DNA of 64,000 nt from Acidobacteriaceae bacterium (GTDB taxonomy: Bacteria > Acidobacteriota > Terriglobia > Terriglobales > Acidobacteriaceae). A model generated the notes under the pieces. The model made no database searches. It was not told the origin of the DNA and saw only the letters and a list, made by a program, of their open reading frames with translations. Shown one piece after another: positions 20,926-49,575 of the stretch (its first letter is position 1; each line of letters opens with the position of its first letter). The position numbers and the translations under genes are program-made. The stretch covers positions 1 to 64,000 of the forward strand of contig PKUV01000059.1 in assembly GCA_003131315.1 (NCBI GenBank). The letters run 5' to 3'.

Positions 20926-21738
20926 ATGCTGGCTGAAGAGCGCCGCTTCCGCATTCGCGAAATGCTTTCGGTCGACCGCACGGTCAATGCCTCGGAACTG
21001 ACGAGGACACTGGGGGTTACAGCGGCTACCGTCCGGCGCGACCTGGCTGCTTTGGAGCAGGAAGGCGTTCTGGTACGCTCCCATGGTGGAGCGGCGTCTC
21101 ACGCTCCGAGCACGAACTTCCAGCCCTCTTACGAGGCCCTCGGGCGCGTCAACAAAGAGGAAAAGCAAGCCATTGCCCTCGAAGCCGAGCGCATGATTCT
21201 GGATGGTGACACGCTCTTTCTCGAGGGCAGCACCACGGTGTATGAGCTGGCCCGGCGCCTACAACATCGCAAACGCCTCACTGTCGTCACCAATTCGCCG
21301 CTGATTCTCTGCCAGTTGCAGCGCTGCCCGAACATCAATCTCATGTGTACCGGCGGAGATCTCCAGAAGGATGTTTTCTATCTGTCCGGTCTCTGGGCAC
21401 AGAGGTCGATTAGCGAGATTCGAGTCGACAAGGCAATCCTGGGAGTGAGCGCGATCGATCCCACCTACGGCGTCTCTACTGCCAGCTCGGCTGAAGCCCA
21501 AATCAAGAAAATGCTGCTCAAAGTAGCCCGGGTACGCATCGCCCTAGCGGATCACAGCAAGTTCGGCAACCAGGCGTTTGCGTATGTCGGGCCCGTCACT
21601 GATTTCAACACCTTGATCACCGACTCTGGAACCGATGCCAAACACGTCGATGCTCTGCGCGAGAGTGGCGTCGAAGTGGTAGTGGCAGAGCAGGCGCCAG
21701 CGACAAAGGAACCGCGGGTTCCGCGCAAATCGCGCTAA
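20926..21738 (+). CDS. Second DeoR/GlpR-family transcriptional regulator
   Basis: 270 residues starting at ATG 20926, with TGGAG ten bases upstream; the longer frame from 20830 adds residues atypical of the family. The helix-turn-helix (MLAEERRFRIREMLSVDRTV, LGVTAATVRRDLAALEQEG, wing RSHGGAA) precedes the effector domain (LFLEGSTTVYELARRL, VVTNSPLILCQL, MCTGGDLQKDVFYLSGLWA, LADHSKFGNQAF). Family members are sugar-phosphate-responsive repressors. It is divergent from the minus-strand catabolic operon and so is the likeliest regulator of it, while the DeoR at 8268 accompanies the SIS/PfkB set. Its 3' end overlaps the convergent frame at 21617 by 122 bp. Confidence 0.86.
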   Translation: MLAEERRFRIREMLSVDRTVNASELTRTLGVTAATVRRDLAALEQEGVLVRSHGGAASHAPSTNFQPSYEALGRVNKEEKQAIALEAERMILDGDTLFLEGSTTVYELARRLQHRKRLTVVTNSPLILCQLQRCPNINLMCTGGDLQKDVFYLSGLWAQRSISEIRVDKAILGVSAIDPTYGVSTASSAEAQIKKMLLKVARVRIALADHSKFGNQAFAYVGPVTDFNTLITDSGTDAKHVDALRESGVEVVVAEQAPATKEPRVPRKSR

Positions 21739-22186
21739 CGCTGGCGCTGGGCTTGGTTGGCCCCGCATCATCATGTTGTTCAACGAGGCTTTCGGCGCGC
21801 GCTCGGATCTTCCTTTGGTCGGTCTTTAATTCCTTAATCGTCCTTGCAATGCCTTCCAGTTCCTTCTGAGGCCTTCTGGTGCTCTCGCGAGCCTCGGTGT
21901 CCCTATACATATCTGTAAGTGCTCTTTTGTTCTTCTTAGTCGCTCTTGTTCTGGATACTGCGGAAGCAGACAGCATCGGTTTCGATTTCGAACGTGTGAG
22001 CACAAAGTCGTTCACTGTGCTCGTGCCCACCTTGAGGCCACAAGCTTTCTTGAGCACCTGTGTGATTTCTCGATAGCTGTGGCCGCGCTTTCGCATCTCG
22101 GTGATTAGCTCACTGTGGGGTTCCAAACGCGAGCGCGACTCCTTCGCTGGCAGGCTGTTGAGTATGGCTTCGAATCTGGTGTCCAC
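21617..22186 (-). CDS. Plasmid-like helix-turn-helix protein of unknown function
   Basis: About 189 residues from GTG 22186, which has a strong GGAGGAA site; a TTG start upstream is less likely. The N-terminal third (RSRLEPHSELITEMRKRGHS, YREITQVLKKACGLKVGTST, VNDFVLTR) resembles the resolvase-like HTH of small proteins commonly encoded on conjugative plasmids and integrative elements. A basic, charged, probably coiled-coil stretch follows (KELEGIARTIKELKTDQRKI). The last 40 or so residues are read from DNA antisense to the DeoR gene and look non-native, suggesting that the original 3' end was lost at an insertion or deletion junction near 21740-21770. It lies 400 bp from the tRNA array. Confidence 0.5.
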   Translation of the reverse strand: MDTRFEAILNSLPAKESRSRLEPHSELITEMRKRGHSYREITQVLKKACGLKVGTSTVNDFVLTRSKSKPMLSASAVSRTRATKKNKRALTDMYRDTEARESTRRPQKELEGIARTIKELKTDQRKIRARAESLVEQHDDAGPTKPSASVSAICAEPAVPLSLAPALPLPLRRHSRAEHRRVWHRFQSR

Positions 22187-22332
22187 GATTTCCTCCGAAT
22201 GCGCCTGGAGAGATGGATTCCGGCGAAAGGCCGTTACCGATAACAGACGCCGAACAGGAGCCAAAGGGATGGCCGGACAATCGCCGGATATGAACCGGAT
22301 GTGCGCCGGGCGGCATTTCAGGTCGCGCTTGC

Positions 22333-22369
22333 GACACCGGACCTAACGCGGAGCGTTAGGGATGGTGTC
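22333..22369. repeat. Two-tier inverted repeat (hairpin) upstream of the tRNA array
   Basis: Outer arms GACACC (22333-22338) and GGTGTC (22364-22369) enclose inner arms CCTAACGC (22342-22349) and GCGTTAGG (22353-22360), with symmetrical 3-nt internal loops and a GGA apex. There is no following T tract, so it is not an obvious terminator. It could be a binding or processing site of the mobile element. Confidence 0.6.
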
Positions 22370-22467
22370 TCTTTGGAAAACGAAGTGCTTTTTCTGGACA
22401 GCAACTGCGGCGACGAATCTGCATCAGTCGTGAATGGCCGACGCACAGGGCCGAGCGCCGAAAATGC

Positions 22468-22497
22468 GTGCACTGGTGCACAGTTTCATGCTACATT
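22468..22497 (+). promoter_or_regulatory. Possible promoter of the tRNA array with a GTGCAC pair
   Basis: GTGCAC occurs twice (22468-22473 and 22476-22481), separated by TG, and is followed by TGCTACATT (22489-22497), which matches an extended -10 element. No good -35 box is seen. It lies about 90 bp upstream of the first tRNA. Confidence 0.35.
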
Positions 22498-22588
22498 GAC
22501 GTTGTGAAGCGCCTGCTTCAATTTCGATCGTCATTACGACTCCGTCGATCCCGACTGAGTTATTAACTCCTGCACAATTTCTAGCTTC

Positions 22589-22665
22589 AGGCCCGTGACG
22601 GAACTGGCATACGTAGCTGCCTCAAGAACAGCCTTTTGTGGGTTCGACTCCCACCGGGCCTGCCA
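22589..22665 (+). tRNA. tRNA-Leu(CAA)-like, with short variable region
   Basis: Acceptor AGGCCCG/CGGGCCT pairs fully, followed by G and an encoded CCA (22663-22665). The D-arm is leucine-like (ACGGAACTGGCATACGT) and the T-arm is GTGGG-TTCGACT-CCCAC. The anticodon loop CTCAAGA gives CAA at 22623-22625, on a stem with one mismatch (31-39). The variable region is only CTTTT, whereas bacterial tRNA-Leu normally has a long arm; the discriminator is G rather than the A expected for Leu. It may be a degenerate or non-standard tRNA. First of five tandem genes. Confidence 0.65.
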
Positions 22666-22685
22666 CAGTTCTTTGACAATTCAAC

Positions 22686-22787
22686 GGAGAGTGGGCCGGA
22701 CGGTAAGGCACCAAGTCTGCTAGTCCTGTTGGTTAAACCCAGGCTCTCGCAAGAGGCTAACGGGTTCAACTCCCGTACTCTCCGCCA
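22686..22787 (+). tRNA. tRNA-Ser(GCT)-like, 102 nt, abnormal anticodon arm
   Basis: Acceptor GGAGAGT/ACTCTCC, discriminator G and encoded CCA (22785-22787) are intact, as are the T-arm ACGGG-TTCAACT-CCCGT and a Ser-like D-arm (GCC/GGC). The best anticodon is GCT at 22719-22721 in CTGCTAG. The anticodon stem pairs poorly in the normal register, but CCAA (22711-22714) pairs with TTGG (22729-22732), leaving a 14-nt loop. A variable arm with CTCT-CGCA-AGAG is present. The gene is about 12 nt longer than usual, suggesting an insertion. Identity is tentative. Confidence 0.5.
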
Positions 22788-22790
22788 TGC

Positions 22791-22879
22791 GGAAGGTACT
22801 GCTGAATGGCCGGCAACTGGTCTTGAAAACCAGGGCATCGTGATGAGCGATGGGCGTTCGATTCGTCTACCTTCCGCCA
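22791..22879 (+). tRNA. tRNA-Ser(TGA)
   Basis: Acceptor GGAAGGT/ACCTTCC, discriminator G and encoded CCA (22877-22879) are present. The anticodon stem CTGGT/ACCAG encloses CTTGAAA, anticodon TGA. A serine-type long variable arm folds through CATCG and CGATG. The T-stem contains two G-T wobbles. At 89 nt it is the most canonical member of the array; it starts 3 nt after the preceding gene. Confidence 0.85.
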
Positions 22880-22884
22880 AGTTT

Positions 22885-22975
22885 GCACAGGTGCGTGAGC
22901 CAGGCTGAAACGAACCGGCTGTAACCCGGTTTCCCCAAGTGGGACGCGGAGGTTCAAATCCTTCCCTGCGCACCA
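22885..22975 (+). tRNA. tRNA-Tyr(GTA)
   Basis: The anticodon arm ACCGG-CTGTAAC-CCGGT gives GTA for tyrosine. The long variable arm (TCCCC..GGGAC), T-arm GGAGG-TTCAAAT-CCTTC, discriminator A and encoded CCA (22973-22975) fit bacterial tRNA-Tyr. The acceptor GCACAGG/CCTGCGC has one A-C mismatch at the third pair. Spacing from the previous tRNA is 5 nt. Confidence 0.82.
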
Positions 22976-22979
22976 GAGT

Positions 22980-23056
22980 GCCAGCGTGTGCGAATTGGAA
23001 TAGCAGCCTGTCTTAGAAACAGATGTTTGAGAGTTCGAATCTCTCCGCTGGCACCA
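22980..23056 (+). tRNA. tRNA-Leu(TAG)-like, with short variable region
   Basis: Acceptor GCCAGCG/CGCTGGC, discriminator A and encoded CCA (23054-23056) are sound. The D-arm (TGC-GAATTGGAATA-GCA) and anticodon loop CTTAGAA (anticodon TAG) are leucine-like, and the T-arm is GAGAG-TTCGAAT-CTCTC. The variable region is only about 5 nt (TGTTT), instead of the long arm of bacterial tRNA-Leu, giving 77 nt. It starts 4 nt after tRNA-Tyr and closes the array. Confidence 0.72.
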
Positions 23057-46460: not shown

Positions 46461-46536
46461 TGGTGGACCTGGTCGGGATCGAACCGACGACCTCTTCCAT
46501 GCCATGGAAGCGCGCTCCCAGCTGCGCCACAGGCCC
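46461..46536 (-). tRNA. tRNA-Ala(GGC)
   Basis: Read on the minus strand: acceptor GGGCCTG/CAGGTCC with one G-T pair, discriminator A and encoded CCA (46463-46461). The D-arm is GCGC-AGCTGGGAGC-GC, the anticodon arm CTTCC-ATGGCAT-GGAAG with anticodon GGC, and the T-arm GTCGG-TTCGATC-CCGAC. The 76-nt cloverleaf is canonical. Confidence 0.93.
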
Positions 46537-49317: not shown

Positions 49318-49575
49318 ATTGTGCGCGAGGACTGGGCCGTCCCTCCGGGACTTGAATCCTCTCTTCTACTTTCCCAGCGCTGAAGCGCTGGGCTAAACTG
49401 GCTCGCCCCTCCGGGGCTGGACTCTGGATTCGCTCTGGCGTCAGGAACTGCCGCAATATTCCATCCAGGACGAGCAGAGTCGTGCAATCTCCCCACATCT
49501 TCAGTACATCTTCGGTACTATTCGGTTTGACCGCGAATTGACCAGTTCGTACACTATTTTCTAGCTCATCCATCT

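Follow-up and report, generated by a model that had tools for sequence, protein, structure and literature searches.

Long tRNA operons and array units, such as Anabaena trn and those of Mycobacterium, are dense and redundant, have spread horizontally, cover all amino acids and in some cases lie on plasmids, as set out in the parts of PMC5966550 and PMC10272220 considered here. Translational stress derepresses the Anabaena plasmid trn operon and also rtcB, which lies apart from it on the chromosome and is controlled by the same repressor (PMC10272220, same part). Phage arrays, found in jumbo phages, XacN1 and T5-like phages, combine tRNAs with PNKP/Hen1, RtcB or TROVE genes (excerpts of PMC7824862 and PMC5852040), and the survey of jumbo phages reads the joint presence of tRNAs and RNA repair as serving to counteract attack on translation (PMC7824862). 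Soil Acidobacteria are a reported source of allo-tRNAs and of irregular polycistrons of tRNA genes (Mukai et al. 2017, as reviewed in PMC7609411); the allo-tRNA section of that review describes 8/4 Ser tRNAs, UAU genes and polycistrons, and mentions neither a complete set nor a class II operon, repair genes or an origin of transfer. Two further systems are related in part: bacterial repair operons containing Pnkp/Hen1 and RtcB, and the anti-defence islands of plasmid leading regions, where protective genes lie beside oriT and where the excerpted text of PMC11541004 stresses genes readable from the incoming strand.

Here we describe a tRNA array in a 64,000-nt stretch of DNA (the window) from Acidobacteriaceae bacterium GCA_003131315.1 (contig PKUV01000059.1), whose 6.0 Mb assembly in 194 contigs is labelled G000. 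On balance we judge it likely that this array is operon B of a portable tRNA set which comprises two operons and RNA-repair genes, is carried by MobF-type elements of Terriglobia and probably counters tRNA-targeting attack. The anatomy of the set is well supported, and its function is suggested by sequence. The odd composition of the array would then be explained, because the array would be one of the two operons that make up a mobile tRNA set. Like the long tRNA operons, the set is dense, redundant and mobile; unlike them, it segregates Leu, Ser and Tyr genes in an operon of their own, has repair genes built in (RtcB lies inside operon A, in contrast to the separate Anabaena gene) and has a predicted oriT beside the module in five loci. 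It differs from phage arrays in its carrier, a relaxase-bearing bacterial element, and in its strict split by tRNA identity. With the soil allo-tRNA polycistrons it has in common an 8/4 Ser tRNA, a UAU gene and an origin in Acidobacteria, and it offers these irregular polycistrons a genomic home. The module uses the same enzyme families as the bacterial repair operons, which here mostly lack tRNA arrays, and its genes beside oriT are tRNA genes transcribed away from it, in contrast to the leading-region islands. The combination of tRNA arrays and RNA repair, so far joined in jumbo phages according to the part of PMC7824862 considered, is thus tied here to a relaxase-bearing bacterial element with a predicted oriT.

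Five tRNA genes of unusual shape

The array and the region upstream of it comprise the following features, with tRNA structures as predicted by the programs named and all coordinates referring to the window.

21617-22264, minus strand: open reading frame of 215 aa without a Pfam match; in genome G011 its homologue lies across an oriT-like element from a MobF relaxase gene
22335-22380, plus strand: predicted MobF oriT, with a hairpin at 22342-22360 followed by GGTGTCT at 22364-22370, predicted nick after 22370
22486-22588, plus strand: operon B leader, with an extended -10-like TGCTACATT at 22489-22497 and two hairpins, kept in loci with unrelated flanks
22589-22665, plus strand: tRNA-Leu(CAA), class I shape, 5-nt variable region, G73 and not A73, one anticodon-stem pair broken (ARAGORN, Rfam)
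22668-22681, plus strand: boxA-like GTTCTTTGACAATT between the first two tRNAs, a weak candidate from alignments of loci
22686-22787, plus strand: tRNA-Ser(GCU), anticodon arm enlarged by a 14-nt insertion (Rfam tRNA model, alignment to relatives)
22791-22879, plus strand: tRNA-Ser(UGA), 8/4 cloverleaf like that of selenocysteine tRNA, G73, all pairs intact (ARAGORN, Rfam)
22885-22975, plus strand: tRNA-Tyr(GUA), long variable arm, A-C mismatch in the acceptor stem (ARAGORN)
22980-23056, plus strand: tRNA-Leu(UAG), class I shape, 5-nt variable region, A73, one anticodon-stem pair broken (ARAGORN, Rfam)

The first-pass annotation had reported five closely spaced, CCA-encoding Leu, Ser and Tyr tRNAs, both Leu genes being without a long variable arm, and this description holds. 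The genes follow one another in the order Leu-CAA, Ser-GCU, Ser-UGA, Tyr-GUA and Leu-UAG with gaps of 20, 3, 5 and 4 nt, and CCA is encoded at the end of all five. ARAGORN finds four of them and misses Ser-GCU, which was detected with the Rfam tRNA model (30.1 bits, E 4e-4). In G001, G002 and G003 the corresponding gene is an 88-nt tRNA-Ser(GCU), and the window gene with its insertion is probably inactive. Ser-UGA scores 40.6 bits (E 1.6e-6) against the Rfam tRNA-Sec covariance model, below the gathering score of 47, and its 8-bp acceptor stem and 4-bp T-stem form all 8+4 pairs; the other four tRNAs were modelled as 7/5. Ser-UGA is thus the only member with the 12-bp acceptor branch of allo-tRNAs, which takes an 8/4 or 9/3 form; its anticodon is a Ser anticodon, where allo-tRNAs have serine identity and mostly a non-Ser anticodon.

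Canonical tRNA genes for the same amino acids sit elsewhere in the genome. G000 contains six such Leu genes of 85-89 nt with five anticodons (UAG, UAA, CAG twice, CAA and GAG), as well as Ser genes for GGA, UGA, GCU and CGA and a Tyr gene for GUA. The window tRNAs are therefore not the sole chromosomal copies, and the array is not the host's own tRNA set. Both window Leu genes are 77 nt long with a 5-nt variable region (ARAGORN), and those of the cassette in general measure 77-78 nt and lack the ordinary bacterial long variable arm. Across the loci compared, tRNA-Leu genes of arrays fall at 74-78 nt and those outside arrays at 85-89 nt, with none intermediate.

Loss of the variable arm does not prevent charging of E. 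coli tRNA-Leu variants that retain A73, and an A73-to-G73 change can turn Leu identity into Ser (both from the part of PMC9976931 considered). A73 is present in window Leu-UAG and in both Leu genes of the seven other complete loci, while window Leu-CAA carries G73. By analogy with the E. coli variants, the short-arm Leu tRNAs of relatives are plausibly leucylated. The first-pass annotation had also raised altered charging, which the data do not demonstrate; among the eight complete copies, A73 is lost from window Leu-CAA only.

Short-arm tRNA-Leu genes also occur in other mobile DNA. In a phage collection, 12 records match the cassette, all within the Leu-CAA interval and over at most 13% of the query, and a phage origin of the window copy was rejected, the collection resembling this interval only. 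Salmonella phage S124 and Aeromonas phage AhP_Mru1, both Demerecviridae, have 77-nt tRNA-Leu genes, and an array on the Nostoc plasmid pCENA543c (L036) has short-arm tRNA-Leu(CAA) and tRNA-Leu(UAG), as does the cassette. A gapped short-arm tRNA-Leu pattern identified 33 stretches in 32 viral contigs. ARAGORN found 89 Leu genes in these, of which 59 measure 74-79 nt and 30 at least 80 nt; the stretches were chosen by the short-arm pattern, so that 59 of 89 gives no rate. Viral arrays hence mix short- and long-arm Leu genes. Among the matches listed in a literature search there was no description of short-arm tRNA-Leu in mobile elements, and an earlier mention is possible; the excerpted text of PMC10264068 does not describe it.

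Spread, conservation and decay of the cassette

The array belongs to a cassette of ~580 bp present at 12 loci in Terriglobia (Acidobacteriota), in several genera and two families. It is complete at eight loci (G000-G003, G282, G421, G431 and G433) and partial at four (G010, G017, G322 and G432). A scan of the genus found it complete in 4 of 24 genomes and as a fragment in two more, leaving out 13 of 19 matching genomes in which a short tRNA stretch, the Tyr interval or another, matched and was taken for a canonical tRNA. A scan of 399 genomes of the class found complete copies in G000, G282 and G421, the latter two belonging to other genera, and a truncated copy in G322, of another family (94% over 235 bp). 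These class-scan copies share 88-96% identity with that of G003; left out were 28 of 35 matching genomes with the Tyr interval only, and G158, G206 and G372, whose matches are limited to parts of the Ser-UGA and Tyr stretch. A pattern scan of genome contigs returned eight contigs, five of them with loci known from the other scans and three with new loci (G431-G433), the carriers being metagenome-assembled Terriglobia, Acidobacteria, Acidobacteriaceae or Candidatus Angelobacter. All named cassette carriers are metagenome-assembled, and the loci, being of common ancestry, do not represent independent events.

With the cassette or a piece of it in 6 of 24 genus genomes, the array is not conserved at one locus in all relatives. 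Compared at the DNA level, the window and the five other genus loci have only the cassette and short pieces in common, and flanks are mostly unrelated among the cassette loci. A wider comparison of flanks revealed a Pnkp gene or its end in G002, G003 and G282, a metallophosphatase gene in G002 and G282, a nucleotidyltransferase/HEPN pair in G003 and G282, and an RtcB gene in G001, G282, G421 and G322. Sequence beyond the shared cassette ends, upstream or downstream, is common to subsets of loci only. In G010 (L040 9682-10040) the cassette breaks within Leu-CAA into a G003-like nucleotidyltransferase stretch, downstream of a tRNA-Glu-like gene.

Several candidate identities were rejected. No terminal repeat was seen by eye at the shared ends, as would suit a small transposon. 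No plasmid copy was found, with ten plasmid records matching over at most 21% of the cassette, nine of them cyanobacterial in the tRNA-Ser interval and one from Methylibium in the Tyr interval. A conserved ~1.4-kb neighbour considered as an insertion sequence proved to be RtcB.

The leader is predicted to be structured (RNA fold of the G003 homologue, z -3.72). The motif GTTCTTTGACAATT, which we tentatively take to be a boxA in name and role, is the only exact match in the G000 genome; a common rRNA-leader signal was not supported, as none of four one-mismatch sites was tied to rRNA.

The window copy shows signs of decay, with 6 of 115 stem pairs broken in four of its five tRNAs. The corresponding numbers for the seven other complete loci are 0, 1, 1, 1, 1, 2 and 2 of 115. 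Among the eight loci, both bases have been replaced at three pairs, namely Leu-CAA 10:26 (window) and Ser-GCU 61:77 and Ser-UGA 49:59 (both G421), which is evidence of selection on structure. These data bear on the view that the cassette is a non-functional passenger, selfish or neutral debris spread by hitch-hiking. Such debris could resemble the decaying window copy, the decayed fragment in G017 and the truncated copies in G010 and G322, but the seven complete copies that keep 113-115 of 115 pairs, the two-sided changes, and a leader and gene order conserved while most flanks differ make this view very improbable.

A second operon and the split by amino acid

In six of the complete loci a second, convergent tRNA operon (operon A) lies on the same contig as the cassette. 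ARAGORN finds 25 tRNAs in G002, 24 in G433, 24 in G431, 22 in G421, 23 before RtcB and then a Pro gene in G282, and five up to the contig end in G001. There is not one Leu, Ser or Tyr gene in operon A at any of the six loci. In G431 (SZAS KAN-5), three more genes were detected with Rfam: one for Phe, another with the anticodon CAU and one for UAU that is allo-tRNA-like. With these, 17 amino acids are represented in operon A, and Leu, Ser and Tyr in operon B, together all 20. The 27 other array tRNAs of G431 include no Leu, Ser or Tyr gene; by our arithmetic, five class II genes placed randomly among 32 would be partitioned in this way with a chance of 1 in 201,376. The identity bias that drew attention to the window array is thus real and not due to chance, as the same five genes recur in the same order in eight complete loci and the partition is strict in G431.

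G003 has only a tRNA-Pro-like piece within the 20 kb examined, and G000 gave no DNA match to the operon A and RtcB query. No plasmid copy of operon A was found either, five records matching over about one tRNA length. The window cassette is redundant with the chromosomal set and horizontally transferred, as are the described array units. With five tRNAs it falls below the 20 by which such units are defined, whereas G431, G433, G282, G002 and G421 have more than 20. A mobile supply of the tRNAs, one of the explanations offered in the first-pass annotation, is supported by the 12 loci, the other genera and family, the mostly unrelated flanks, the predicted oriT and the MobF gene; the set is not limited to class II by design, as fuller elements pair the cassette with a second operon and so provide for all amino acids.

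Three related arrangements were observed. A single 30-tRNA array in G158, of another family (L105 9656-13543), has contiguous Ser, Leu and Tyr genes, including four short-arm Leu genes. G419 (L145 55-2757) has twelve tRNA genes, none for Leu, Ser or Tyr, directly upstream of Hen1, and part of this stretch is 85% identical to G431 operon A. Elsewhere in the window's own genome (L092, G000:C42:5110-5250) there is a UAU-anticodon tRNA with a long variable arm that resembles the allo-tRNA(UAU) reported from soil Acidobacteria.

Under standard wobble rules, which we take to apply, operon B reads all Ser and Tyr codons and the Leu codons CUN and UUG, leaving UUA alone unread. UUA is also the rarest Leu codon (29 of 11,102 codons in 20 window ORFs that we picked), and hence there is no sign of rare-codon supply. 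A broader form of this idea, which has been proposed for phage arrays and does not involve tRNA attack, is that the set frees translation of the element from dependence on the tRNAs of the recipient. It would account for the coverage of all 20 amino acids in G431, and it has parallels in the 56 tRNAs of phage XacN1, argued to serve codon supply and host range (excerpt of PMC5852040), and in the response of the Anabaena plasmid trn operon to general translational stress (part of PMC10272220). We regard it as unlikely: the five anticodons of operon B duplicate canonical G000 genes, and codon supply does not predict repair genes inside and beside the tRNA operon.

Predicted transfer origin, repair genes and possible function

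The window region 21817-22379 shares 82% DNA identity with G011:C103, from a genome without the cassette. There, an oriT-like element lies ~60 bp upstream of a TrwC-family relaxase match found in two pieces, from a gene that may be broken, and the homologue of ORF 21617-22264 is on the other side of the element. The predicted oriT folds as DNA with z -3.6 (22335-22400). Its hairpin and GATGGTGTCT lie upstream of the cassette in five loci (G000, G003, G282, G322 and G433), the stem being CCTAACGC/GCGTTAGG in G000 and CCTAAGCC/GGCTTAGG in the other four; in all, the hairpin is kept in six loci with two stem variants. No such element was detected close to the cassettes of G001, G002, G421 and G431. 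The exact motif occurs in 3 of the 399 class genomes, all three cassette carriers. A search for a hairpin plus TGTCT around other MobF genes gave no convincing further oriT candidate.

A MobF relaxase gene is present on the cassette contig in G282 and G433, and as a fragment in G432; the window's contig has no TrwC-family relaxase gene. The whole module lies between the oriT-like element and the MobF gene in both G282 (199.4 and 180.9 kb, respectively) and G433 (47.3 and 68.6 kb), with the same relative orientation of element and relaxase gene as in G011. No type IV secretion gene was found among the ORFs tested around G282 and G433, and the element may therefore be only mobilisable, or incomplete. 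The window copy, consisting of an accessory gene, the predicted oriT and operon B, is an orphan remnant, presumably left behind by an element, its tRNAs apparently decaying without their partner genes.

The nick site of R388 follows a hairpin and ends in TGTCT. If nick polarity is as in R388, operon B would enter the recipient early and be transcribed away from the predicted oriT, and second-strand synthesis would therefore be needed. Given the assumed polarity, this direction misfits transcription from the incoming single strand.

At least one RNA-repair gene lies near the cassette in 9 of the 12 loci, with RtcB situated inside operon A. In G282, RtcB is followed by tRNA-Pro, a barstar homologue, Hen1, two RlaP genes and Pnkp; G002 has RtcB, Hen1 and the end of Pnkp, and G433 has RtcB, Hen1 and a full Pnkp. 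RtcB is present in G421 and G431, RtcB DNA in G001 and, at the break, in G322, Pnkp in G003, and a TROVE/Ro60 gene adjoins the partial cassette in G432. No repair gene was found among ten window ORFs tested, nor Hen1 in the G000 genome; none was found in G010 (three ORFs and DNA comparison) or in G017 (DNA and protein comparison). Hen1 itself is present in 44 of the 399 class genomes, and tRNA clusters adjoin it in 3 of 41 regions (G282, G419 and G260), these being 40 regions plus L101 of G282, some cut by contig ends or with Hen1 fragments. A general link between Hen1 and tRNA arrays is thus not supported, and the repair link is typical of the cassette and not of Hen1. In G260 (L163 9414-9571), tRNA-Lys(CUU) and tRNA-Asn(GUU) lie ~30 nt upstream of Hen1. 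In G003 (L039 34-3993), an open frame fuses an AcrB-like transporter piece to Pnkp, perhaps at a deletion junction.

On the other side of the cassette, the genes in G282 and G433 are of defence type. G282 (L101 10794-16984) has a Hhe/PDC-S37-like helicase-nuclease gene and then a PDC-M05 nucleotidyltransferase/HEPN pair, divergent from operon B, while in G433 AbiEii lies beyond the cassette on the side opposite the repair genes.

From this gene content we infer that the set is expressed, charged and used under tRNA attack. After transfer, or when nucleases of the host or of rivals cut tRNAs, the element would supply replacement tRNAs, and its repair enzymes would mend broken ones, so that element genes could still be translated. 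The odd shapes (armless Leu and 8/4 Ser) may be tolerated by host LeuRS and SerRS and may be poorer targets for enzymes recognising host class II tRNAs. This shape-based evasion fits at most three of the five tRNAs, because Ser-GCU and Tyr have ordinary long variable arms, and the mixed arm types of viral arrays, where 30 of 89 Leu genes are 80 nt or longer, also speak against it.

The irregular shapes could also mean that the tRNAs do not serve translation and work as bait or sensor of the repair machinery linked to them, a role resembling that of the tRNA-like Y RNAs found next to RtcB and Ro60. The TROVE/Ro60 gene adjacent in G432 would suit this role. The Salmonella RtcB operon responds to damaged tRNA, and the tRNA-like domain of a Y RNA has been suggested as a competitive inhibitor of anticodon nuclease (both in the part of PMC7790460 considered); moreover, allo-tRNA-like polycistron members reported from soil metatranscriptomes were not chargeable by E. 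coli enzymes (excerpt of PMC7609411). We nevertheless consider such a role doubtful, and less probable than codon supply, since the full anticodon partition, the CCA ends, the near-intact stems in seven loci and the kept A73/G73 point to selection for decoding and charging.

We therefore retain the replacement set with RNA repair as the preferred reading. A wider generalisation can be offered only tentatively, and we would not expect all of it to hold. Bacterial conjugative elements may carry a complete replacement tRNA set, split by identity class and placed with repair enzymes beside oriT, and this would act as an anti-defence module when immunity targets tRNAs. Class I-shaped tRNA-Leu and 8/4 tRNA-Ser might then form a lineage common to phages, plasmids and conjugative elements, missed by nucleases that target host tRNAs and still charged by host synthetases.

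Some further genes were observed at these loci. Alpha-2-macroglobulin-like genes lie within operon A in G433 (L199 9717-15782) and near the cassette in G001 (L037 1410-6191) and G322 (L103 46-2337). Elsewhere in the window, ARAGORN finds an ordinary tRNA-Ala(GGC) at 46461-46536 on the minus strand, and positions 49373-49418 match the sRNA family Acido-Lenti-1 (Rfam RF01687, 52.3 bits), the name of which fits an acidobacterial origin.
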